Assembly: GCA_905250025.1 (NCBI GenBank)
Contig: CAJNOJ010000219.1
Location: forward strand, 1 to 64,000
Length of the DNA stretch: 64,000 nt
Direction of reading: 5' to 3'
Source: Adineta ricciae
Taxonomy: Eukaryota; Rotifera; Eurotatoria; Adinetida; Adinetidae
Shown: one piece after another, positions 7,497-58,765 of the stretch
Numbering within the stretch: the first letter of the stretch is position 1
How the letters are laid out: each line of letters opens with the position of its first letter
Position numbers and translations under genes: made by a program
Notes under the pieces: model-generated
What the model was told of the DNA's origin: nothing
Databases searched by the model: none
The model's input: only the letters and a program-made list of their open reading frames with translations

Positions 7497-8088
7497 AATC
7501 AAATGCATACGAAGCTTTTTTGTCATTTCTGTGAACAGTATTGATTTGTTTGGTTTTTGATTTTATTTATGAATAAAGAAAATTTGTTGAATCAGTGTAA
7601 ATAACATCTATTCTCATTGTTAACCTTCATTTTGAAGAATATTTTAATGAGATATTTAAAAAAAAAAGCCCTACGTACAATAATAGAAAAAGACTTCGAT
7701 ATCAAATTATGTGTTGCGTGCATATACTCAGAAGTGTCACCATTATTCTTTACAACAATCCTTGAAAATCGATTTGTTTCTATCAAGTAACAATATACCG
7801 ACTGAAAGTATATTCGCCTGCGTAAATCCACCTCTATAATATATCGATACATTTAGATTTAATAGGAATGCGATTGCTAATGTGAAAATCATTTCTTGTT
7901 GTTGTTATTTAATTCGATGATTTCTATTCACTTCTGATCGATGTTATCGAAGAAAATATTGTGTAAAACGAAAGAAATGTATGGAAATTAAATATAAATC
8001 ACTTACAGAAGGTAATGATTCATTATAAACAAGAAAGTCGTCGTCTTGTCGTTTTTCTTATAGACATACATTTGTACCATTGAATAAG
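7497..8088. other. Intergenic with likely 5' UTR intron of the FN2 gene
   Basis: It holds the poly(A) signal of the membrane protein gene (7572-7577). A donor-like AAGGTAATG near 8010 and an acceptor TTCTTATAG just before 8064 suggest a 5' UTR intron of the downstream gene. Otherwise it is AT-rich and empty. Confidence 0.45.
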
Positions 8089-11000
8089 ATGAAGTTCAGT
8101 CGAAATCAGAGATCCATTTTCTTCGTGTTTATTCTTACAATTCAGTTGACCATCAAAGGAGAACCAGCAAATGATGAAGATCAGGCTCATGTCGTATTAA
8201 ATAGTGAACATGTCAATGATCCAATCATTTCAACCACTCATTTAGTAGAAAGTGTTGATCATGATGATACCATATTATCTCCATCTAAAAGTACAACAAT
8301 TACTGCTGATTCCACTACAACCCCTCATGTTGCGCTCGATTCAACAACAACAACGCACTCTGACGTATTTAATGCGACAGTATCACCGAGTAGTTCTACA
8401 ACAACAACAACAACAACAACAACGGTTGAAACCACAACTACTGTAGCCAGAACAACTAACGGTAGTGTTGCATCTGTAAATAGGTCCGTTGAGATTGAAG
8501 TGGATGTACCTACAAAAACATCGGTATATACTGTAAACATTAATAACAATGATGATCAACCGTTTCTTAACTCCACCACGAATAGAAACAATACATTATC
8601 AATCCAAAACAATACCGATACTTCATTAAATATATCGATTCCAGTTACATCTAATTCGCAGCAAAATACAACAACAACTATTAAACCTATACTGACGATA
8701 AACAATAGTACAGGAATAGGTTCAAACACAACTACATTGAATCCATCAAATTCGTCTACCATTAACAATATCACTACTACTGCTACTATTACCACTACCA
8801 TACCTGTTCGAAATACTACAACTACAGTACAGTTTGCAAACGATAATTCTGTATCGAACACTACGGATAGAACTACCACGACTACCACTACAATGTTACT
8901 ATCCAATAGTAGTAGTATCAGCTTCGTAAATAACAATAATTCTATAAATACAACAACAACAACAGCTACTACTACTACTACTACTGCAGCAACAAAATCA
9001 TCAACTTTGTTACTCGGTACGACTCTATTTGGCAGTACTACCGGTAATGGAACGAACACCAATGTGTCGTCAAGCACTAATGTAACGATTGCGCCTCCGG
9101 TTGCTACTCAGCCGAATAATATTAGTTCGTTACAAATAACATCATCGGTAAATATTTCAAATCAAAGTTTATCATTGGCAAGAAATAATACGGGTGAGAA
9201 CGTTATAGCGCCGACAGTACTACCAAATTTCCCAGCACAAAATCTTACGTCATCAAATGATAACACAAACGTATCCGTGAGTCCAGTAACGTCAACGACT
9301 AGATCATCTTCCAATGACACTCTCAATCGCACATCAACTACGTCGACTACCACTATCATTTCTGATTTATCTACGAGGACAGGACAACAAACGGTCAATA
9401 TTGTTCCTACAGTATCATCTACATTGGCGTATTCAAATGACACTGTATTGATCTCATTGAATACTACTCAGATTAGAGTGCCATCTAACTCGTCAGCAAC
9501 TGCACAACCTCTAAACAGCACGTTGACTTCAACATTATCGCCATCATCATTATCGAATCAAAGCACACCATTGAATGGTAGTAATGCATATTCAAGTATG
9601 CAATCCAATACAACATCAACAAGATCTACTCCTAATGCCAATCAAGTATCTGGTGATATATTTCTTCCAACGCAAAACGTGCTGACTACTGTTAATCAGA
9701 GTGTACCATTACTTCTCAATACGTCTCAGACAGTGAACGCATCGAATATAACAAATCCTCAACTAAGTAGCACACTTCCGCCAGTGAACAGTTCAAATCT
9801 GAATGTATCCAGTTCAATAAATACTACGCAATCCACTCCTGACACAAATCAAAGGACGAGTGGCAGTTTGACTTCAACGACTCGTTCGTCTAATCTTGCA
9901 AATCAAACTTTACCTCTTTCCATAAATAGTACACAAGCATCTGCTCCATTGGACTCATTAGCAACAAGATTATCTAACACCACAGTACCAATTACGATTA
10001 CTCCTGCTTTCTCAACTGCCTCTCAATCCAATATTGCGAATCAAAATTTATCGCTATCAAACCATACTCAAGGAAATACTTCCCTTGATGTTTCTTCAAC
10101 AAGATTATCAAATGTTACGCAGCAACCAGTACTTAACACAGTGTCTGTACCTGTTTCGCAAACGAACAGTTCGAATGCGACTCAATTCACTCCCACTCCT
10201 ACTGTACTCGCAACTCGGACACCAGACAATACAAATGCCTCAATAGCGAATAATCAATCGTTGAACAACTCGACTCCAAATTCGTCAACACCTACGAACG
10301 CTACCCAAGGAAGTGTTACTATTGATGCTTCTGCAACCAGATTATCAACTGTCACACCAGGACCAATACTTAATAATGCATCATCAAGTACATCGCAACT
10401 AAATTATTCAAATCAGACTCTATCACCGGTAACAAATACAACACAGGCAGCCGGCTCTTCAGTTTCGTTCACGACACGAGTACCTACTATTACAAATCAA
10501 CCATCTCTAAATAATCAGTCATTGAACAATTCAGCTCAAAATTCATCAATAACTGCTAATACTACACAAGGGAGTATTACTATTGATATATCCGGAAGCA
10601 GATCACCATTTAGTACGCAAGCATCGGTCCTTAATTCAGTATCATCAGGCTTATTACTACCAAACGTTTCGAATCAGAGTGTAACATTACCAACTTATAC
10701 AAATCAACCATCTCAAAATAATCAGTCACTGAACAGCTCAGCTCAGAATTCGTCAACAACTGCAAATACTATCCAAGGAGGTGTTACTATTGATATTTCA
10801 GCGACAAGATTGCCGTCTGCTACGCAGGCGTCAATATTTAATACAGTCTCACCAAATGTCTCGAATCAGAGTGTGTCTTTGTCGATTAACACAACTCACC
10901 CAGCTGATATTTCTAATACATTCTCAACACGAGCACCGGATCATACAACTCAACAGCTAGTGAATAATCGATCACTGAATAGTTCAACGCAAAGTCCGTT

Positions 11001-14000
11001 ATTGCCTACTAAAACTGCACAAGAAGTAGTCACCAATGATGTCTCTGCAATGAAGTCGCCATTCGTCACACAAACTCCAATACTAAATACTGGATCTTCA
11101 GGTACATCATCCTTCAATATTTCAAATCCAAATGTATCTATAGAAATAAATACAGCCCAGGCAACGATTTATTCAACGTTACTCGAAACTCGGACGCCAG
11201 TTTACACAAATCAGCCAACTGTCAATAACGAGCCATCAAACAATTCAAATCAAAGTTCATTAATACCTGTCAGCACTACCCACGGAGGCGCTACCATTGA
11301 GATCTCCACCACGAGATTACCATCGGCTACGCAACAAGTACCACATAATACCATACCACCAAGTACATCACAGCCCAACAACTCAAATCAGAGTATATCT
11401 GCACAGGTAAACACGACCTTGACAACTGATCATTCAACCTTGCTCGTAACTCGAGCATCGGTTAATACGAATCAACCCACTGGGAATAATCAATCAGTGA
11501 ACAATTCAATTCAGAGTTCGCCATTACCTATTAACATCACCCAAGGAGGTGCTACTGTTGACATATCCTCAACAAAACTGGCATCCGTTACGCAAGGACC
11601 AATATTGAGTACTGTGCCGTCAGGTGTATCACATATCAATAATTCAAATCAGAGCGTAACTCTACAAACAAACACAACCTTCACGACTGATCATTCAATC
11701 TCATACGTAACTGGGGTGGCAGCTAACACCAATCAGGCGACTGCGAATAGTCAACCACTAAACAATTCCATTTCGAATTCGTCGATATCTGCTAACACCA
11801 CGCACGAAACTGTCATTATTGAAATTTCTGCGACGAGACCATCATCCGTTACACAAAGTCCAATATTAAATACTGTTTCGTCTGGTACTGCACAAGTCAA
11901 TAATTCAAACCAAAGCGTATCTACACAATTAAACACGACAGTAACTGCGGACCACTTAACGTTCGTTACAACTCGACTACCGGCTAATATAAGTCAGCAA
12001 ACAAACAGTAGCTTACTATTTACCACCCAATCATTAAACAATTCAAACCAGAACTTCTCTTCACTTACTATTACACCGCACAGTAATGTTTCTCTTGATT
12101 ATACATCAACGAAAGCGTCATCCGCGACAGAAACACATACATCATATACTATTCCGTCAGGTGTGTTGCAATCAAACTCTTCAAATCAGAGTCTACCTTT
12201 AGCAACAAGCGTAACACAAACGACTGATCATTCAACATTACTTGTAACAGGAGTACCGGCCAATACAAACCACTCATCGAATAATTCAAACCCGAGTTCG
12301 GCAACACTTGCCAATATTACTCAAGGAACCGCTGCTTCGGATGCTTCATCAACAAGAGCGTCATCGATTACACATCAGCCAACAACAAATACTGCATCGT
12401 CAGGTACTGCACAAGCTAATACTTCAATTCTAACAATGCATACGACACACGCGACAAGAATACCGAACTATACAGATCAGCCAACTTCGAACAGTCATGT
12501 TTTAAACGTTTCAGGTCAAAGTTCGCCAACCATCAACAACAGTACACAAGGAACTACTCCATTCAATGCAACAGCAACGTATTTGAGCACCATGTCGCCA
12601 ACACGGGATGGCGCTATTTTCAATCAAACTTCACTAGTTCCTACAAAGACTACTACCATGGCAACAGATGGCTCGCCAAGTTCGTTTTCAACACAACATC
12701 CGACTATTATCAATCAAACTACAGCTCATATCCAGACAACGATATCATTACCTTCGTCTTTGAATAGCACACAAATGCTAATTAACTCGACAGGATCGTC
12801 CACAACTGGAGCACCATTTTTGACACATCAACAAACTCAAAATCCAAGTATACTGTCAACGTCCAATAATACACATAATACCCATACAGTTTCACCGTCT
12901 TCTTCGGGTGCAACAGCTCACCAGGGTGATGAGAACATTTCGACAACATTCTCTCCGACTCATATGAGCCAAAGCGTTCCTTTTTCAGTGATAAACACAA
13001 GAAATGATTCGTCAAACAATCCGACTCCCACTCACTTACTACTTAATACAACGGTGCAAACTGTAAACAGTACAGTACCGACACTATTCTCCTCGATACC
13101 GCTAAATCAAACGCAATCGGTTTTTACTGGTAATGCACCAACCGATAGTCATTCCATTCCCGATGCTACCAGAATTCCATCTTCTACAGTTCAACCGACA
13201 GAAAACACATTGCAATCAATTCTGTCATCATCCAGTCATGTAGATAATCGAGCGACTAGTACACCATCGTCGACAGCAGAAAAAACACATGACAGGACGT
13301 CATCAGCATCACCTACTAGTATGAATGGTCAGACTACTAAGGCGGATGCGATCATACAGTCATCTGCGTCTGGTACTCCATTAAAAACAACTATCACAGT
13401 TGCCTTTCCAACTCACGGTTCTGATTTGACGACACATGTGACAGGTATTGGTGATATTTCAACGTCAATATTTCTCGAAAAACTTACTTCATCATCACGA
13501 TCGCAGTCGACATTTACTTCCAGTAATAAACAGTATACTTCTGATAATAATCACGTTGGAACAATAACAGAAAATATCATGCCTTTCTCAACGACGTCCT
13601 CTACTCTAGTTCAATATTCAACTATCGCTGATCAGGCAATGACTGGACACAGTACAATTTCCAACTCTCGCATCCTTTCCACGATATTTTCGTTTTCCAT
13701 TGCAAATTCTGCTGCTGACGATCATAGCCCTCTAACATCAGTGAATACAAATGCAAACACTGATAGATCGTCTCTTCCTCCAACATCTAGCCCGCTAGCA
13801 ACGGCTGCCACCATGACAAATTCGAACCCAAGTCAAACAACTCGTGCGGCGATGCTCTCCACACCAGTGATTCCGATTGCTACATCAACTCTCGATAATA
13901 CTCACTCGGACATTTTAACAGCTATCCGTAATGTCCCAACGAGCACCGTACCTTCATTCATTTCAAATGCAATCAGTACTGCGCAAAATACGATAAATAC

Positions 14001-15769
14001 ACCCTCTAGTACGAATAATTATATAAGTCAAACAGTCTCTACGCCAATCACAGTGAACCTATTTTCTGTTCAAGCGTCATTCACAGCCACGCCGGCTACA
14101 AACACTATCGTAAGCACATCTTCGTTGTTTCCTAACAGTGTACAGAGTACATCAAATAACATAATATCATCAACATTGACTTCAACTGCGCAATCTTCGC
14201 TAACAACTCAAACCACAGCTTCTTTATCTGGATCATTCAATGGCTCAGACACTAGTACTTCTCGATCGATGCCAACATCGACATTATCAAAAGATAGTAC
14301 AACTATTCTTTCGCAATTACTGACATTATCTGGCTCAACTATGTCAAATCTAACTTTAACAACTCGAAATGCAATTTCGAATACTTCATTCACAACACAA
14401 TTAAACTTGAATCTGACGAACACTTCAGGTATTGAAAATCATGCATTTCTTTTCCGATGATCACGTTTTGTCATGTAATCCATAAATAATTAGCTCCCAA
14501 CGAGTGTGTCTTTCCGTTTCTCTATTTGGGCCAATGGTATGAAAAGTGCATCAGCGATGTGTTCAATGATAGTTGGTGTTCTCTAACAGCAAACTTCGAT
14601 CAAGATCGAAAATGGAAGTATTGCCGAGGTAAGTCTGTCGAAACACAAATCCACCAGAAAAACATCTCATTTAGCATCACGAGTGAAAACTACCGGTGGT
14701 ACTGGCAATGGCAATGATTGCTACTTTCCGTTTATATACCAAGGCTCATCGTTTTCTACATGTATTTATCGTACAGTAACAATAGGCACAACGACATCAT
14801 TTGCATTATTTTGCTCGACAACACCCAATCTCGATCAGCATGGTCTATGGGGCTACTGTTTAGGTATAGAATTCGTTTTCTTCTTTCTACTTTGATTTCG
14901 AATTGTATAGATTATACTTCATGCTATTTCCCATTCGTTTACAACGGTATCACATACTCTGATTGTGTCAGCGGGCCACAATCAGCCCGATGGTGCTCTA
15001 CAACTGCTAGGTAAACCGATTTTGTTCATATTTAAAGCAAAATATATTACATTGTTTTTTTGTGTAATTCTAGTTTTGATCGAAACAATATGTGGACTAA
15101 TTGCCCTGGTATGTTACGATCGTTGTTATTCGATTAGTATATGAAAGTGCATTTTGAGTACGTTTCGTCAGTTTCGAGCTATTGCGCAGCATTGCGTTGT
15201 TTTGTTTTCTTATTCGATTTCTTGTTATGTCTGACTTTGTCCTTGCCATTCGAAGTTCGTTTTGACCTGTACGGTAATTTAATGCACTCTTTTAGTTCTG
15301 ATTTATAACCAAAACGTCGTAGTTTTGTCCAATCTGTACATTTACCTGAGTTCAATTTACTATTATAGAAATAGAAATGAAATCGATTTGAAGATAGGTG
15401 ATCCTCATTCGTCTTACCAACGACTTTTTTCAGTTAACATTGGATACAGCACAACAAAGAATAACATAAACCCGAGAAAATCCTTTCAAGAAAAGCGCTG
15501 ATATCTTCTTCATCGTTCTAGTTACTTGTGATGGATATCCACAGCAAGATGAACATTCCGTTGGCTTTCGTCTGCTCTCCGAACAAAAGCCTTGTGTGTT
15601 CAAACAGTCGATATCTCAAGACACTGATCTTATATTGAAATATTATACATTGCCAACATGTCAATTAGAACCATTGTGTCGTGATGGTTACACACCATTA
15701 TTCAAAGAGATCACTTGTCAGGAGGACGGTCGATATAGTTACCCAAGAACGATCTGTATACAAAACTAA
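8089..15769 (+). CDS. Giant secreted Ser/Thr/Asn-rich mucin-like protein with three FN2 modules
   Basis: Six exons (8089-14428, 14494-14628, 14675-14863, 14911-15010, 15074-15108, 15522-15769) join in frame to about 2348 aa. The true ATG is 8089. A signal peptide (SIFFVFILTIQLTIKG) is followed by about 2100 residues of low-complexity Ser/Thr/Asn/Gln sequence packed with N-X-S/T sequons, including about ten degenerate 87-aa repeats. The C-terminus has three fibronectin type II modules (CVFPFLYLGQWYEKC, CYFPFIYQGSSFSTC, CYFPFVYNGITYSDC, each with a downstream WC/FC..T and final Cys), then a Cys-rich segment ending QN. No membrane anchor is seen. The apparent stop at 14458-14460 is intronic. FN2 modules usually bind collagen or glycans, so a heavily glycosylated coat or cuticle component is inferred. 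Confidence 0.85.
8396..8424 (+). repeat. (ACA)n coding microsatellite
   Basis: A run of ACA codons encodes a threonine tract near the N-terminus of the mucin-like protein. The copy B run is shorter, and the length difference keeps the frame. Confidence 0.8.
10030..12420 (+). repeat. Degenerate 87-aa tandem repeats in the mucin-like protein
   Basis: About ten units share the pattern T-Q-G-x-V-T-I-D-I-S-x-T-R-L, then TQ-x-P-I-L-N-T-V-S-S-G, N-N-S-N-Q-S-V, TDHSTL-x-VTR and NNQSLNNS. Spacing between anchors is typically 261 bp (87 aa), with a few shorter units near 68-81 aa. Units are far more diverged from each other than from their copy B counterparts, so the array predates the duplication. 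Confidence 0.75.
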
Positions 15770-18483: not shown

Positions 18484-21400
18484 TTATTCAGATTCTTCTG
18501 TTATGTGAAATTCAACTGGCATGTAGATTCGTTGCCAAACGGTAATTTTCGTATCACCATCTTCCATAACTTCAGACCTGACATGAACACAGCCATTTTC
18601 ATCATCACTGGTCAACTCCGGATTATTCCATTTACCTTTCAATACCATCCACAAGGTTTCATTGAGCATAAAATCCGTCGTTGCAATACTTATTCGAACC
18701 GTACCAGGTCCACGACCACGTATCATTGCCGTGCATGGCTGCCCAAATGATCGTACGAGACCGAGATCAACGTTGAGACGGTCTTTGGAATAACATGTGT
18801 AACAAGTGGTATCTGTATCTCGATCATAGAAGATATGGGTATCATTTTCCTTTGAGAAAATAATTGAAGGAGGTAAATCAGATAGGTCGGTCGATGACCA
18901 AGGATCATCTCCTGAACGCGAAAATTCATCCATCCATTCCTGTGTTGGATGATTTCCAATGAGAATTGTGTAAACGAATGATGCGGTGCTATCTTCGACA
19001 TTTAAATGTTCAATATACCCGAGACCGTATTTGTCTTTCGTTGTTTTGAAGTATTTTTCATTATCTTCAAAGACTGGTTCTTTGAACTTTTTTGATTTCA
19101 TGTCAATAATCGGGTTTTGTTTACCATCGATTAAATAGTATGCATTGCAATAGATCATATCTTGTTCGCTGCGTCGTAGTGTGATCCGATATGCTTGCTT
19201 GGAATTATCCTTCGGATGTAAATAATAACACAAGTTTCGATGATCAGTTATGGAATTTAATTCCTGGTTATCGAAGACTCTTTCCTCAGGGAAACCGCTC
19301 ATTTCTTCGTCATGATTCAACCGAAATGGTGTTTGTTCAAGTTTTTCTAAATTCGAAAAGTTCGATTGAAACAGTGTTGTTATAACTGGTCGTTTTTCAT
19401 GTTGTAATAATTTAATGTTCGATGTTAAAACAGTAATACGATTATCAAAACAATAAACTGACCGACGCAAAGCAATGTCCCAGACGAAAAAATCATTACT
19501 AAACATGCCATCACGACCTGCTATCGATGTTCCGCCAGCGAACCAATTCTTGGCTGTTAAATTACAATAACCTTCGAATAGTTCTGAACGCGGTCTCAAA
19601 AGACAGGTTGTACCAGGCCTAGAATTTAAAATAAATGTGGTTATGAATGACGTGAGCTGTACAAACCAGTGTGACCAGTTCCAGCCAGGAAATGCACAAC
19701 CCGTATTCGAATATTTCACGGCACCGTGATCGTCGGGTGGAACGATAAATATCGAACAATTACGAACATATTTGCCATAGTTATTTGTATCCGATAACCA
19801 ACCTGAATGCAAGAAATATTAGGAATTATTGTGGGGCTGCAAGTTTCTCACCGTAGATTTCCAAACCACGTCGATTTTTACCCATGCCAATAATGCAGGC
19901 AAAGAAATCTTCACGTCGATGAATACAAGCAGCAGTAGAATTGAGCGTTAAATGACCTATCAGTGGAACTGAATCGACGCCACTGAACAACAATAACAAA
20001 ATTTTCTCGATATACACATATGGAATCTCTGTTTACTCACTCTTTCAAATACGTTGCGATACTTTTATCACTTTTTGGACACATATCCACAAGCATTCCA
20101 GCGACAAATGGATCGTAACCATATTCCTGATCGCAAATACATACACATTTTTTCGTCATATTAATTCCATTGCATGCAACAGTCTTTCCTAGATAAAAAC
20201 TTCTACTCCTTCCTCATTGAATATCAAGACAGAAATTTTACCAGCACGAGCACCAAGATTTGGCGGTATTGTGTTGTTTTCAATCAAACAGAAATTCAAG
20301 GTATGCACACAACGACGAAGAAGGCGACGAATATTATCCGGAAAGTGGAGTCCTGTATCGTTCAGGTCCGATGCAAAATTCAACACATCAGGTAATGAAT
20401 AGGATGTATATTCAAAATGGCACATCCAATGATGATGTACAGTTCCGTCTAAAGACTGAAGATGATTACGAACAACGACATCATTTTGCTTACCTAAAGC
20501 CAGTGGCTCATGGATTCGATTTTCAAATGAATAAATCAAGGTATATCGAAACGCGATAAGTCGTCGAAGAAGTTCATTCGGTTCAGGTATACAAACAATC
20601 AATCGAGACTACGTAGAAAATATTTATCCATTTTACTTTCAATATTATTCGAATGTCACATACCACATTAGTTAGATAATTATGAATGATATCTGTACTC
20701 ATGATTGATGTTTGTTTTTCAGTTAGTAAATGTCCATACATAATCCATATAGCTGATGTGATGATTGGTTGTAATCGATTAACTTCATTCAATTGATCGC
20801 GAATATAAACAAAGCACATGGGGAAATTTCGAATTTCGTATCCTGAATATAAATATCAATTCATTTGGTTTGAAAAGTCACCATTCAGCTACGCTTACCG
20901 ATATCTAGATGTCCTGAAAGGTTTAAATTTCCTTCTGACCAACCTTGCTCCAAGAGATAATCGCACAATTGAAGTAATAGCTTCCAAACATTTTGACCTT
21001 CTTCACTTTCGAACGTTTTTTGGTGTCGATGGCATTGATAAGTTGTCGCTGTTCGTCGCAGTGGGCCCAATAGGAAAGGTTGAATATCTAGTGCATTTTC
21101 TGGTGAATAGAATGCACCTTTACCTAATGGAACATTCGAAATATTATTAGGCTTAATTCCATACACTGCTGATAATTCTTGTAGTTTATTAAAAGATTCG
21201 GGTTTTGCACTTGGTGCCCTATAATGCAAATGGATACTTTTAATATAATATCAGATTTCTCTCCTACCATGTCGCATAGGGCAAACTCCGTAACCACCGA
21301 TCTTTCACTTTATTAACATCATCATCCGAAACAGTCGGATGTTGCTCTTCTAACCATGGACGATTATGAAAGATGTTCTTTGGATTGAACAACCATGTAG

Positions 21401-21923
21401 ATGGATTGTCTTCTAATCGTCTGATGTCACTAGTCCATGGTTGCTGATAATCAGCTTGTGGTCCAGTAGAATGCGTATAATCAAAATTAATTCCATTCAA
21501 AAAGTAGACACCATCGGGAATATTCGATGGTAAAGATATGCGAATTCCATGAATTCGAGTTAGATTATTCTTAAACTGTGGTAGAAGTGCATAACGTAAA
21601 CCCAATGCTCGCCAACCGGAATAGTTAATATGATACCAAATGCGAGCTACAGGTGTACTATCTGTAGCAGTGAGAAATTCGATATCCATAGGTTGTAGTG
21701 CAGTGTTTTCATCGAATTCGATTTCCTGATTGCAATAAAACCACAGCGCAAAACATTTATTATTCGCCCATTTGATCGATCGAAACGCTTCTGGGTTCGT
21801 ATACGTCAGTGACGATCCTGAGCCGGCTTCCCACTTTAGGCTTGATGTGCCATGTTTGAATCGTTCTGACGAAACATTAACTTGACTGTCAATCGCATAC
21901 CAGTATCGTGGATCGTCGTTCAT
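18484..21923 (-). CDS. Polysaccharide lyase family 8, chondroitin ABC lyase-like
   Basis: PL8 enzymes cleave chondroitin/dermatan sulfate or hyaluronan by beta-elimination. Seven exons (21923-21268, 21218-20899, 20842-20664, 20608-20242, 20188-20041, 19982-19852, 19802-18484) join in frame to 1039 aa; bacterial chondroitinase ABC I has about 1020. The N-terminal carbohydrate-binding-like domain (SSERFKHGTSSLKWEAG, YSGWRALGLRYA), catalytic alpha-toroid (DGTVHHHWMCH, LGARAG), central beta domain (GLEIYG, FPGWNWSHW, SRPGTT) and C-terminal beta domain (GQPCTAMI, LKGKWN) occur in family order. The catalytic tetrad appears kept: His449, Tyr455, Arg506 and Glu598, matching His501, Tyr508, Arg560 and Glu653. 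No signal peptide is seen; an upstream stop lies in frame before the ATG. Probably acquired by horizontal transfer, since it is intron-rich and the family is mainly microbial. Confidence 0.88.
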
Positions 21924-22423
21924 GGCACTTCGAGATTATTTGTCTATGATCAAAGAGAAGAAAAAAAAACAGAATGATTAATATTCGAATATGAAACCAA
22001 GGTGTATATATACTGATTGATCAGAAGATCGATTTGTTTTTTTCGTTCTTATATTTATTTTTTATCTTCTTTCTTATAAAAAAAAACTATATAAAATGTC
22101 GTATATTTCTATTTCTTTTATATAAGAATTCAAAATGCAAGCAGTAGAGAATGTGTTAGCAAAGCAAAATATGGCCTGTTTAAAATATGAGGAGAATTTC
22201 TACAAAGCAAAACAAAGTTTCTTTGAATTGTTTTCACTATTCTATATATATACATCGTTCACAAACGAAAATATGTATAAGATCGATAAGAATTGGAAAT
22301 AAGTATATTAGTTAGTCAATGAAAAATAAGCTTTCGTTGGAAAAGAAAAACATCAAAAATAAAAGAGAAATCGACGTTTATTGTTTGACGATATAAAGAA
22401 TAGAACTGAAATGGGAGGAAAAG
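21924..22423. other. Intergenic between plastin and the PL8 lyase
   Basis: AT-rich and gene-free. On the minus strand an acceptor-like TGATCATAG lies 23-24 bases before the PL8 ATG, suggesting a 5' UTR intron or trans-splice site. Nothing else is recognised. Confidence 0.45.
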
Positions 22424-36596: not shown

Positions 36597-36806
36597 CTAG
36601 CGGGCGTACCCGCTGCAAAATAAGAAATATCTATGTCGAATGCCTGACGTGTTGAAAAGCTGCAGCAAATAGAAAAATCAATAGACTCCAAGATTGTATG
36701 CTGGCGGTCCTAATTTTTCCCGCCGTGCATCGCACAAAACGACAACTTCAATTATAGCTCTTTATGCAAAAGAGTTACCGAAGCTGATTTCTGCCTCAGA
36801 ACTTAT
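36597..36806 (-). mobile_element. Probable Helitron 3' terminal fragment
   Basis: Read on the minus strand, the segment ends with a GC-rich hairpin (GCGGG, loop, CCCGC; 36600-36613) followed by CTAG and then a T. This is the standard 3' end of rolling-circle Helitrons (hairpin, CTRR, insertion before T). The 200 bases inward show no coding capacity, so it would be a non-autonomous or truncated copy. Its other end is lost at the unknown base 36807 or in the adjoining bases. Confidence 0.5.
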
Positions 36807-36807
36807 N
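36807..36807. other. Unknown base at the junction before copy B
   Basis: The only N in the window. It lies between the Helitron-like fragment and the first base of copy B, as if two contigs or two haplotypes were joined here. Confidence 0.9.
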
Positions 36808-36816
36808 TCGGTCTTT

Positions 36817-37753
36817 TGATTATAATAATCATTGTGAACAGGCATGCACGTGTTTCTAGACTACAAACAATATCGTACTCTTCATTAGTGAAAACCAGAA
36901 GCCTTTTATATATTCTTCTTTGGTCAGTCAGCAAAAAGAAATGAGCACAATTGATCGATTTTTCTTTTTCCTTCATCCATATCGAGTATCTCTCCATTCC
37001 AATTTCCTGACATGTCGTCTCGAGTTGACGGCTTTATATATCTCATTACTAATGTTCTTCATTCATCAGTCTGACAAATGATTTTAAAAGAAAAAGCATT
37101 TAACTAGATGACCATTCGTTTAAGATAAAAGACAAACTGTCATACATTGATGTTCACATCTTATGAATGTGTCGTTTTAATATTGATAGCTGATCAAACA
37201 GACGATGTTACAATGAAATGATTTTTCTCGTTTTACATCACAATGTTCGAATTCATTGATTTTCCCCTTTTCTTGTCTTCATGCTGAGATGATCAAACCG
37301 TGAAAGAAAAACATTAACCATACATACATATATGAAAGAGACAAGTTCATTGAAATTCATTTTAGCAGATTTCTTTTCTTTTGCTTGGTGTTAATTACTT
37401 CGAAAGAATCTGCTTAACAATGAGTGATTGTATTCAGCAGTGTTTTTCAAATGGATATTCAAATGCTAAACGTCCTTCAATGAAGATGAAATTCGCAATT
37501 ATATCACTGCAAAGTAGAAAAATGTCTCACGCTGTTATGTTTAAGAACACTCGACCAATCCACTTCATACCGATGTCAATTGACAGCAAGAAGAGTTCAT
37601 TTGGTTTCTTGAGAAGAATCGTTTTTCTGATAGATAAGACGAAATAATTAACCTTGACAAATGCACTAATGACGACAATGCGCGAAATTTGTATAATTGA
37701 ATAGAAAAAGTCTAAGATGGAACCGTGATGATGATGTAAATCAGCTTGAGACA
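36817..37753. other. Intergenic, copy B upstream of RIB43A
   Basis: Counterpart of 1-936, differing by scattered substitutions and small indels. No gene is seen. Confidence 0.5.
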
Positions 37754-55331: not shown

Positions 55332-58300
55332 TTATTCAGATTCTTGTGTTATGTGAAATTCAACTGGCATGTAGATCCGTTGCCAAACGGTAACTTTCGT
55401 ATCGCCATCTTCCATCACTTCAGACCTTACATGAACACAGCCATTTTCATCATCACTGGTCAACTCCGCATTGTTCCATTTACCTTTCAATACCATCCAC
55501 AAGGTTTTATTGAGCATAAAATCCGTCGTTGCAATACTTATTCGAACCGTACCAGGTCCACGACCACGTATCATTGCCGTGCACGGTTGCCCAAAAGATC
55601 GCACGAGACCGAGATCAACATTGAGACGGTCTTTGGAATAGCATGTGTAACAAGTGGTATCCGTATCTCGATCATAGAAGATGTGAGTATCATTTTCTTT
55701 TGAGAGAATAATTAAAGGAGGTAGATGTGATAAGTCGGTCGATGACCAAGGATCATCTGCTGAATGCGAAAATTCATCCATCCATTCTTGTACTGGATGA
55801 TTTCCAATGAGAATTGTATAAACAAACGACGCGGTACTGTCTTCGACATTTAAATGTTCAATGTATCCGAGACCGTACTTGTCTTTCGTTGTTTTGAAGT
55901 ATTTTTCATTATCTTCGAAGACTGTTTCTTTGAACTTTTTTGATTTCATGTCAATAATCGGGTTTTGTTTAGCATCGATTAGATAGTATGCATTGCAATA
56001 GATCATATCTTGTTCGCTGCGTCGTAGTGTGATCCGATATGCTTGCTTGGAATTATCCTTCGGGTGTAAATAATAGCACAAGTTTCGATGATCAATTATG
56101 GAATTTAGCTCCTGGTTGTCGAAGACTCTTTCTTCAGGGAAACCGGTCATTTCTTCGTCATGATTCAATCGAAATGGTGTTTGTTCAAGCTTTTCTAAGT
56201 TCGAAAAGTTCGATTGAAACAGTGTCGTTATAACCGGTCGTTTTTCATGTTGTAATAATTTAATATTCGATGTTAAAACAGTAATACGATTATCAAAACA
56301 ATAAACTGACCGACGAAAAGCAATGTCCCAGACGAAAAAATCGTTACTAAACATGCCATCGCGACCTGCTATCGATGTTCCGCCAGCGAACCAATTCTTA
56401 GCTGTTAAATTACAATAACCTTCGAATAGTTCTGAACGCGGTCTCAACAAACAGGTTGTACCAGGCCTAGAATTTAAAATAAACGTGGTTATGAATGACG
56501 TGAGCTGTACAAACCAATGCGACCAGTTCCAGCCAGGAAATGCACAACCCGTATTCGAATATTTCACGGTACCGTGATCGTCGGGTGGAACGATGAATAT
56601 CGAACAATTACGAACGTATTTGCCATAGTTATTTGTATCCGATAACCAACCTGAATGCAAGATATATTTGGAATTACTGTGGCACTGAAAGTTTCTTACC
56701 GTAGATTTCCAAACCACGTCGATTTTTACCCATGCCGATAATGCAGGCAAAGAAGTCTTCACGTCGATGAATACAAGCAGCAGTAGAATTAAGCGTTAGA
56801 TGACCATTCAGTGGAACTGGATCGACGCCACTGAACAACAACAAAATTCTCTCGATACACACATATGGAATCTCTGTTTACTCACTCTTTCAGATATGTC
56901 GCGATACTTTTATCACTTTTTGGACACATATCCACAAGCATTCCAGCGACAAATGGATCGTAACCACATTCCTGATCGCCAATAGATACACATTTTTTGG
57001 CCATATTAATTCCATTGCATGCAACAGTTTTTCCTAGATAAAAACTTCTACTTCTTCCTCGTTGAATATCAAGATAGAAATTTTACCAGCACGAGCACCA
57101 AGGTTTGGCGGTATTGTGTTGTTTTCAATCAAACAGAAATCCAAGGTATGGACACAACGACGAAGAAGGCGACGAATATTATCCGGAAAGTGAAGTCCTG
57201 TATCGTTCAGATCCGATGCAAAATTCAGCACATCAGGTAATGAATACGATGTATATTCAAAATGACACATCCAATGATGATGTACAGTTCCGTCTAAATA
57301 CTGAAGATGATTACGAACAACGACAACGTTTTGTTTACCTAAAGCCAATGGCTCATGTATTCGATTTTCAAATGAATAAATCAAAGTATATCGAAACGCG
57401 ATAAGTCGTCGAAGAAGTTCATTCGGTTCAGGTATACAAACTATCAAGCGAGACTACGTAGAAAATATTTATTCATTCTACTTTCAGTATTATTCGAATG
57501 TCACATACCACATTAGTTAGATAATTATGAATGATATCTGTACTCATGATTGATGTTTGTTTTTCAGTTAGTAGATGTCCATACATAATCCATATAGCTG
57601 ACGTGATGATTGGTTGTAATCGATTAGCTTCATTCAATTGATCGCGAATATAAACGAAGCACATGGGGAAATTTCGAATTTCGTATCCTGAAGTATGTCA
57701 ATTCATTCGATTTGAAAAGTTACCATTGAGCTACGCTTACCGATATCCAGATGACCAGATTGATTTAAATTTCCTTCTGACCAACCTTGCTCCAAGAGAT
57801 AATCGCACAATTGAAGTAATAGCTTCCAAACATTTTGACCTTCTTCACTTTCGAACGTTTTCTGGTGTCGATGACATTGATAAGTTGTCGCTGTTCGTCG
57901 CAGTGGACCCAACAGGAAAGGTTGAATATCTAGTGCATTATCTGGTGAATAGAATGCACCTTTACCTAATGGAATATTCGAAATACTATTTGGCTTAATT
58001 CCATACGCTGCTGCTAATTCTTGTAGTTTACTAAAAGATTCAGGTTTTGCACTTGGTGCCCTACAACGCAAACGGATACTTTTACTATCATATCAGATTT
58101 CTCTCCTACCATGTCGCATAGGGCAAATTCCGTAACCACCGGTCTTTCACTTTGTTAACATCATCATCCGAAACAGTAGGATGTTGCTCTTCTAACCATG
58201 GACGATTATGGAAAATGTTCTTTGGATTGAATAACCATGTAGATGGATCGTCTTCTAATCGTCTGATGTCACTGGTCCATGGTTGCTGATAATCAGCTTG

Positions 58301-58765
58301 TGGTCCAGTGGAATGCGTATAATCAAAATTAATTCCATTCAAAAAGTAGATACCATCGGGAATATTCGATGGTAAAGTTATGCGAATTCCATGAATTTGA
58401 GTTAAATTATTCTTAAACTGTGGTAGAAGTGCATAACGTAAACCCAATGCTCGCCAACCGGAATAGTTAATATGATACCAAATGCGAGCCACAGGTGTAC
58501 TCTCTGTAGCAGTGAGGAATTCGATATCCATAGGTTGTACTGTAGTATTTGCATCGAATTCGATTTCTTGATTGCAATAAAACCACAGCGCAAAGCATTT
58601 ATTATTCGCCCATTTGATCGATCGAAATGCTTCTGGGTTCGTATACGTGAGTGACGATCCTGGACCAGCTTCCCATTTTAGACTTGATGTGCCATGTTTG
58701 AATCGTTCTGACGAAACACTAATTTGACTGTCAATCGCATACCAGAACCGTGGATCATCGTTCAT
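55332..58765 (-). CDS. PL8 chondroitin ABC lyase-like protein, copy B
   Basis: Same seven-exon structure. Histidine and tyrosine of MCHFEYTSYS, arginine of LGARAG and glutamate of GLEIYG are all retained, as are FPGWNWSHW and SRPGTT. The N-terminal domain differs from copy A at about 13 of 219 residues, more than NDUFAF1 or the hydroxylase. No signal peptide is seen at MNDDPRFWYAID. Both copies look functional. Confidence 0.88.

Follow-up and report, generated by a model that had tools for sequence, protein, structure and literature searches.

The window analyzed here, 64,000 nt of Adineta ricciae DNA (positions 1 to 64,000 of contig CAJNOJ010000219.1), contains on its minus strand, from 21923 to 18484, a gene whose seven exons and six GT-AG introns (49, 56, 55, 53, 58, and 49 nt, in order) give a single frame of 1039 aa with 0 internal stops (Table 1). 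A 1039-aa product with six introns had been proposed in the first-pass annotation, and the same frame was recovered at exactly these positions. The neighbors of the gene are CIA30, CH-domain, and fatty-acid-hydroxylase genes, with animal-type exons in the CIA30 and CH-domain genes. The GC3 of the gene (0.31 and 0.32) resembles that of five neighboring frames (0.29-0.35), and GC in 2-kb blocks of the window ranges from 0.338 to 0.415. On the plus strand, at 8029-14460, there is also an open frame of 2143 aa, which is Thr/Ser/Asn-rich and mucin-like, with imperfect internal repeats, a hydrophobic start just past its first Met, and no Pfam match. The pyrimidine tract and CATAG read from the letters ahead of the ATG may be a spliced-leader (trans-splice) acceptor. 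When the genome was searched with a pattern that we take to be the bdelloid spliced leader, 41 matches were found, each with a T at the first base as its single mismatch, compared to 0 for the reversed control, and these copies often lie in divergent pairs ∼150 nt apart (contigs C6, C8, C43, C77, C79, C99, and C146).

Table 1. Positions of the PL8 gene copies and associated features in the window, and of GH88 loci elsewhere in the genome.
Feature	Position	Strand	Remarks
First tandem segment	1..36596	+	93.65% identical to contig 36817-73453
Exon 7	18484..19802	-	super-sandwich and C-terminal domains; stop codon
Exon 6	19852..19982	-	super-sandwich domain begins; catalytic E598
Exon 5	20041..20188	-	
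Exon 4	20242..20608	-	toroid domain; catalytic H445, Y452, R506
Exon 3	20664..20842	-	toroid domain; H322 and D324 at site of bacterial His pair
Exon 2	20899..21218	-	toroid (catalytic) domain
Exon 1	21268..21923	-	N-terminal domain, Lyase_N / carbohydrate-binding-like; start codon (ATG) at 21923
Pyrimidine tract, then CATAG	21924..21945	-	20 nt upstream of ATG
The window's only N	36807	.	10 bases ahead of second tandem segment (36817)
Second PL8 copy	55332..58765	-	1039 aa, seven exons, 0 internal stops
Second copy, exon 1	58765-58110	-	
Second copy, exon 2	58060-57741	-	
Second copy, exon 3	57687-57509	-	
Second copy, exon 4	57453-57087	-	
Second copy, exon 5	57033-56886	-	
Second copy, exon 6	56830-56700	-	
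Second copy, exon 7	56650-55332	-	
GH88 unsaturated-glucuronyl-hydrolase locus (L138/L142)	C112:114777-115946		
GH88 unsaturated-glucuronyl-hydrolase locus	C4:662084-663281		
GH88 unsaturated-glucuronyl-hydrolase locus	C448:39354-40558		
GH88 unsaturated-glucuronyl-hydrolase locus	C448:58780-59981		

A second copy of the gene carries the same six introns (49, 53, 55, 53, 55, and 49 nt). The coding parts of the two copies align base for base, with 46 amino acid differences, and Nei-Gojobori counting gave a dS of 0.185, a dN of 0.020, and a dN/dS of 0.11, which indicates purifying selection between the copies. Each copy lies in one of two 36.6-kb near-copies that abut at 36597-36817 with a single N between them, which is probably a scaffold join, and no third copy of the segment was found on the contig up to 94000. 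Most likely, these copies are homologous haplotypes that the assembly placed head to tail, and so would not represent independent loci; the alternative is a true tandem duplication. For A. ricciae, single scaffolds are reported that carry two homologous blocks one behind the other (PMC5916493), and the synonymous divergence of homologues, in a species taken to be A. ricciae, is given as 0.14 ± 0.036 (PMC5916493; PMC7943196). Because the gene has introns, shows purifying selection between its copies, has host-like GC3, and is flanked by the CIA30 and CH-domain genes, we conclude that it is a real, resident, intron-bearing animal gene, as the first-pass annotation had held. Nothing was found in support of bacterial contamination or a mis-joined model; the six spliceosomal introns, which both of the diverged copies retain, the host GC3, and the three kinds of flanking gene make this explanation so improbable that we rejected it.

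To assign the encoded protein to a family, domain models were compared with it. The Lyase_N domain (PF09092) scored 43.3 bits (cut-off 26), and the Lyase_8 super-sandwich (PF02278) scored 28.1 bits (cut-off 27), both above their cut-offs, while the Lyase_catalyt toroid (PF09093), at 22.2 bits, was under its cut-off of 25.1. A profile of 60 bacterial rows, whose source alignment was built jointly with the window rows, these being removed afterwards, matched residues 6-1036 at 254 bits, and none of 200 shuffles nor the one reversed copy was reported at E ≤ 10. The same profile also matched the parts of the protein singly, with 62.7 bits for exon 1, 53.2 bits for exons 2-6, and 119.1 bits for exon 7. 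Identity to bacterial relatives is about 20-25%. Judged from these comparisons, the protein is predicted to be a PL8 lyase of the chondroitinase-ABC type, complete in length but deeply divergent in sequence, in agreement with the original proposal of a full-length chondroitin ABC lyase-like product.

The catalytic residues had been proposed to be His449, Tyr455, Arg506, and Glu598, of which the latter two stand. The columns of H449 and Y455 contain Tyr in 59/60 and Gly in 42/60 bacterial rows, and these residues were rejected as catalytic. The tetrad is H445, Y452, R506, and E598, whose columns are His, Tyr, Arg, and Glu, respectively, in 60/60 bacterial rows each, and it is present in both copies, with a His-Tyr spacing of 7. 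Bacterial sequences also have a His pair preceding GY, which in ABC lyases presumably plays a role in dermatan cleavage. In an alignment that a one-residue insertion makes ambiguous here, the H322 column is His in 54/60 and the D324 column is His in 56/60 bacterial rows, so that the site appears altered in the PL8 protein, with one His and an inserted residue.

Structure prediction was applied to exons 1 and 7, with alignments that contained bacterial lyases, so that the models are not independent of homology. The exon 7 model (438 aa, from a 25-row alignment) had a mean pLDDT of 71.1 and a pTM of 0.77, and when it was compared with the PDB by Foldseek, 1hn0 (chondroitin ABC lyase I) ranked first (E 1.8e-19), with 7eip in second and 2q1f in fourth place. 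PL8-type lyases, judged by titles and families, accounted for 35 of 36 matches with E ≤ 0.001. For exon 1 (218 aa), the pLDDT was 71.7 and the model was poor past residue 160; matches were led by 2q1f, 7eip, and 1hn0, followed by carbohydrate-binding modules. Both exons modeled thus gave lyase-like structures.

The best structural matches of both modeled parts are the Proteus vulgaris chondroitin ABC lyase I (1hn0, 7eip) and the Bacteroides thetaiotaomicron chondroitinase (2q1f), PL8 proteins which are likewise ∼1000 aa long, have the same Lyase_N, toroid, and super-sandwich order, and share the His-Tyr-Arg-Glu tetrad with its His-Tyr spacing of 7. In contrast to the P. vulgaris and B. thetaiotaomicron enzymes, to which it is ∼20% identical, the window protein has no apparent signal peptide, is encoded with six introns, and appears to have lost one His ahead of GY next to the one-residue insertion. 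It also contains 27 cysteines, compared to 0 to 10 in five bacterial proteins counted.

The gene is not the only PL8 gene of this animal. In the genome searched (130.46 Mb, 1033 contigs), Lyase_N matches were confined to the two copies of the window gene, while a six-frame search with PF02278 gave 14 matches elsewhere, on 8 contigs, and 0 at the window gene, the last being a point against its assignment; PF08124 gave 8 matches. There is a separate chondroitinase-AC-type PL8 family (L001-L008, on contigs C63, C178, C127, C309, C389, C590, C525, and C580). Four of its members, L001-L004, each consist of one uninterrupted frame of 761-772 aa that begins with a hydrophobic stretch, L005 has an internal duplication and one unread base, and several further matches have stops; pairs in the family are about 94-95% identical. 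All five AC-type frames inspected begin with hydrophobic stretches, and the L001 product (751 aa) had chondroitinase AC (1hm2) as its first structural match (E 6.1e-46). The chondroitinase AC and hyaluronate lyase branch, which includes L001-L005, shares the PL8 super-sandwich and tetrad type with the window protein, but its members lack Lyase_N and are about 750-770 aa long, those of this genome are uninterrupted by introns and hydrophobic at the start, and the branch is split from the window gene in the tree described below (SH-aLRT 99).

Other genes related to glycosaminoglycans are present in the same genome. GH88 was found at one place by Pfam search and at four loci by protein search (Table 1), and the structural matches of the C112 product were GH88 3wiw (E 6.2e-57) along with unsaturated glucuronyl hydrolases. 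The motif THDVGF, which we take to hold the catalytic Asp of GH88, is kept in the C112 and C4 copies, and SPYNAGF stands there in both C448 copies; the genes on C4 and C448 look as if one intron divided each of them. The CHGN family (PF05679, chondroitin synthase / GalNAc-transferase) gave 18 exon-level matches on seven contigs (C111, C67, C39, C214, C8, C3, and C20). A GH56 search of the genome gave no match, but its control was also silent, and we claim no absence.

By inspection, the PL8 protein begins with MNDDP and has no hydrophobic stretch at its N-terminus, and a TAA five codons upstream of the ATG closes the frame. Inspection of both copies revealed no apparent signal peptide at the ATG and no convincing exon upstream, although 18 splice combinations were tried for copy 1 and 19 for copy 2. 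The most hydrophobic alternative start (11 residues) falls within the last coding part of the CH-domain gene upstream and would be spliced to the interior of exon 1, with a loss of ∼19 residues. One such splice pair is common to both copies (22450/21865 and 59281/58707), and it is an unlikely source of a signal peptide. The lack of an apparent signal peptide leaves the site of action unsure.

Relatives of the PL8 protein were found among Bacteroidota, Bacillota, Actinomycetota, Pseudomonadota, and Planctomycetota, and all are distant. A single-protein scan of genome contigs for close bacterial relatives gave 4 pattern stretches, of which 0 were confirmed, and an alignment-based scan gave 104 relatives, 80 of them kept, with best-segment identities of 19-31%. 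In the phyla of two of these relatives, 15/392 genomes matched the profile (G001 included) and 3/395 matched the protein (G003 included). None of 26 pattern stretches in the viral contigs scanned was confirmed; searches of plasmids and phages returned 6 and 2 records, respectively. One sequence filed as a plasmid, NZ_OL790811.1 of Proteus mirabilis, is 4.08 Mb long, and at such a size is a chromosome.

For phylogeny, 118 rows were thinned at 70% identity to 60, and 6 were added to give 66. The window PL8 pair grouped with the ABC-type rows, apart from the AC-type rows (SH-aLRT 99), with long branches that make its inner placement unsure. Its position in the ABC-type clade was basal, in a part that the tree leaves unresolved, on a branch of 4.4 changes per site, and the branch was 4.61 in a tree made without the longest rows (10 left out); in both trees, meeting of long branches and odd composition were flagged for the window rows. 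When the sampled bacterial ABC rows were constrained to one clade with the window outside (6 rows left out), the resulting tree exceeded the free one by 1.78 log units (p-AU 0.549). The phylogeny with bacterial rows thus bears out the ABC-type assignment, and shows no nesting in any donor group. Since the gene nests in no bacterial group, no donor is indicated, a reading limited by the long branches and odd composition. Recent transfer appears unlikely, because of the low identity to bacteria and the length of the branch. The gene may represent either an old acquisition or an old eukaryotic ancestry, and the trees do not separate these.

Horizontal acquisition from bacteria in the bdelloid lineage, old enough for introns to be gained, has in our estimate somewhat less than an even chance of being correct. 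It would fit with the abundance of transferred genes reported in bdelloids (PMC4632278; PMC3499245), and the AC-type PL8 and GH88 genes of the same genome have bacterial best structural relatives, but there is no donor group, the identity of about 20-25% is low, six introns are present, and codon adaptation, seen in GC3, is full. A gene inherited vertically from an old animal (or choanozoan) PL8 clade, and not acquired specifically by rotifers, is a possibility that we hold more tentatively. Corals and molluscs have database entries under the name chondroitin sulfate ABC lyase, and these would count in favor of such a clade, as does the absence of any bacterial group that holds the gene, its position on a long branch at the ABC-type base, and the constrained topology, in which a bacteria-only ABC clade was equally good or better. 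Long branches nevertheless make the placement weak, and the relatives sampled for comparison are bacterial. The choanoflagellate Salpingoeca rosetta is reported to carry two genes for chondroitin sulfate lyases, possibly from bacteria; only one is restricted to choanoflagellates, consistent with an old clade, but both are called transfer candidates, which points the other way (PMC7971027). By that account, the S. rosetta lyases are also eukaryotic, belong to an intron-rich genome, and are proposed to be bacterial-type (PMC7971027). Searches of the open-licence literature turned up no publication that describes a rotifer gene for a PL8 or chondroitin lyase.

We consider it probable that the product of this resident animal gene is a PL8 lyase of the chondroitinase-ABC type acting on a chondroitin-type glycosaminoglycan, and that the gene is not a recent transfer; the substrate is a likely one because CHGN-family genes, which serve chondroitin synthesis, are present in the genome. 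In such an enzyme, substrate would enter the cleft that separates the alpha/alpha toroid from the super-sandwich, where R506 and its neighbors would neutralize the uronate carboxylate, Y452 and H445 would abstract the proton at C5 and donate one to the leaving oxygen, and E598 would support the active site. The resulting beta-elimination would break the chain and leave a 4,5-unsaturated uronate, and such unsaturated ends could be opened by the GH88 hydrolases of the same genome. A pseudoenzyme or non-lyase, perhaps cytosolic, whose fold is kept for binding, would agree with the very long branch, the lack of an apparent signal peptide, and the changed His pair, but the four catalytic residues are kept in both copies and dN/dS is low, and we regard this explanation as improbable.

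For an active lyase, digestion of extracellular glycosaminoglycans is plausible, though no signal peptide is apparent. The presence of AC-type PL8, GH88, and chondroitin-synthase-family genes in the same genome suggests that a lyase route for glycosaminoglycans is plausible in this animal. A broader and rather doubtful proposal is that bdelloids break down chondroitin-type glycosaminoglycans, their own or those in food, by a bacterial-type route in which ABC- and AC-type PL8 lyases are followed by GH88, with the ABC-type gene representing a deep eukaryotic lineage whose product is adapted to function in the absence of a classical secretion signal.

In the usual view, animals break down glycosaminoglycans by means of hydrolases. 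A genome that contains two PL8 types together with GH88 and chondroitin-synthase-family genes would make it testable whether elimination chemistry is used on the animal's own matrix or on its food, and also whether such lyases were transferred or go back to an ancestral trait of animals, common to choanoflagellates, that has been lost.
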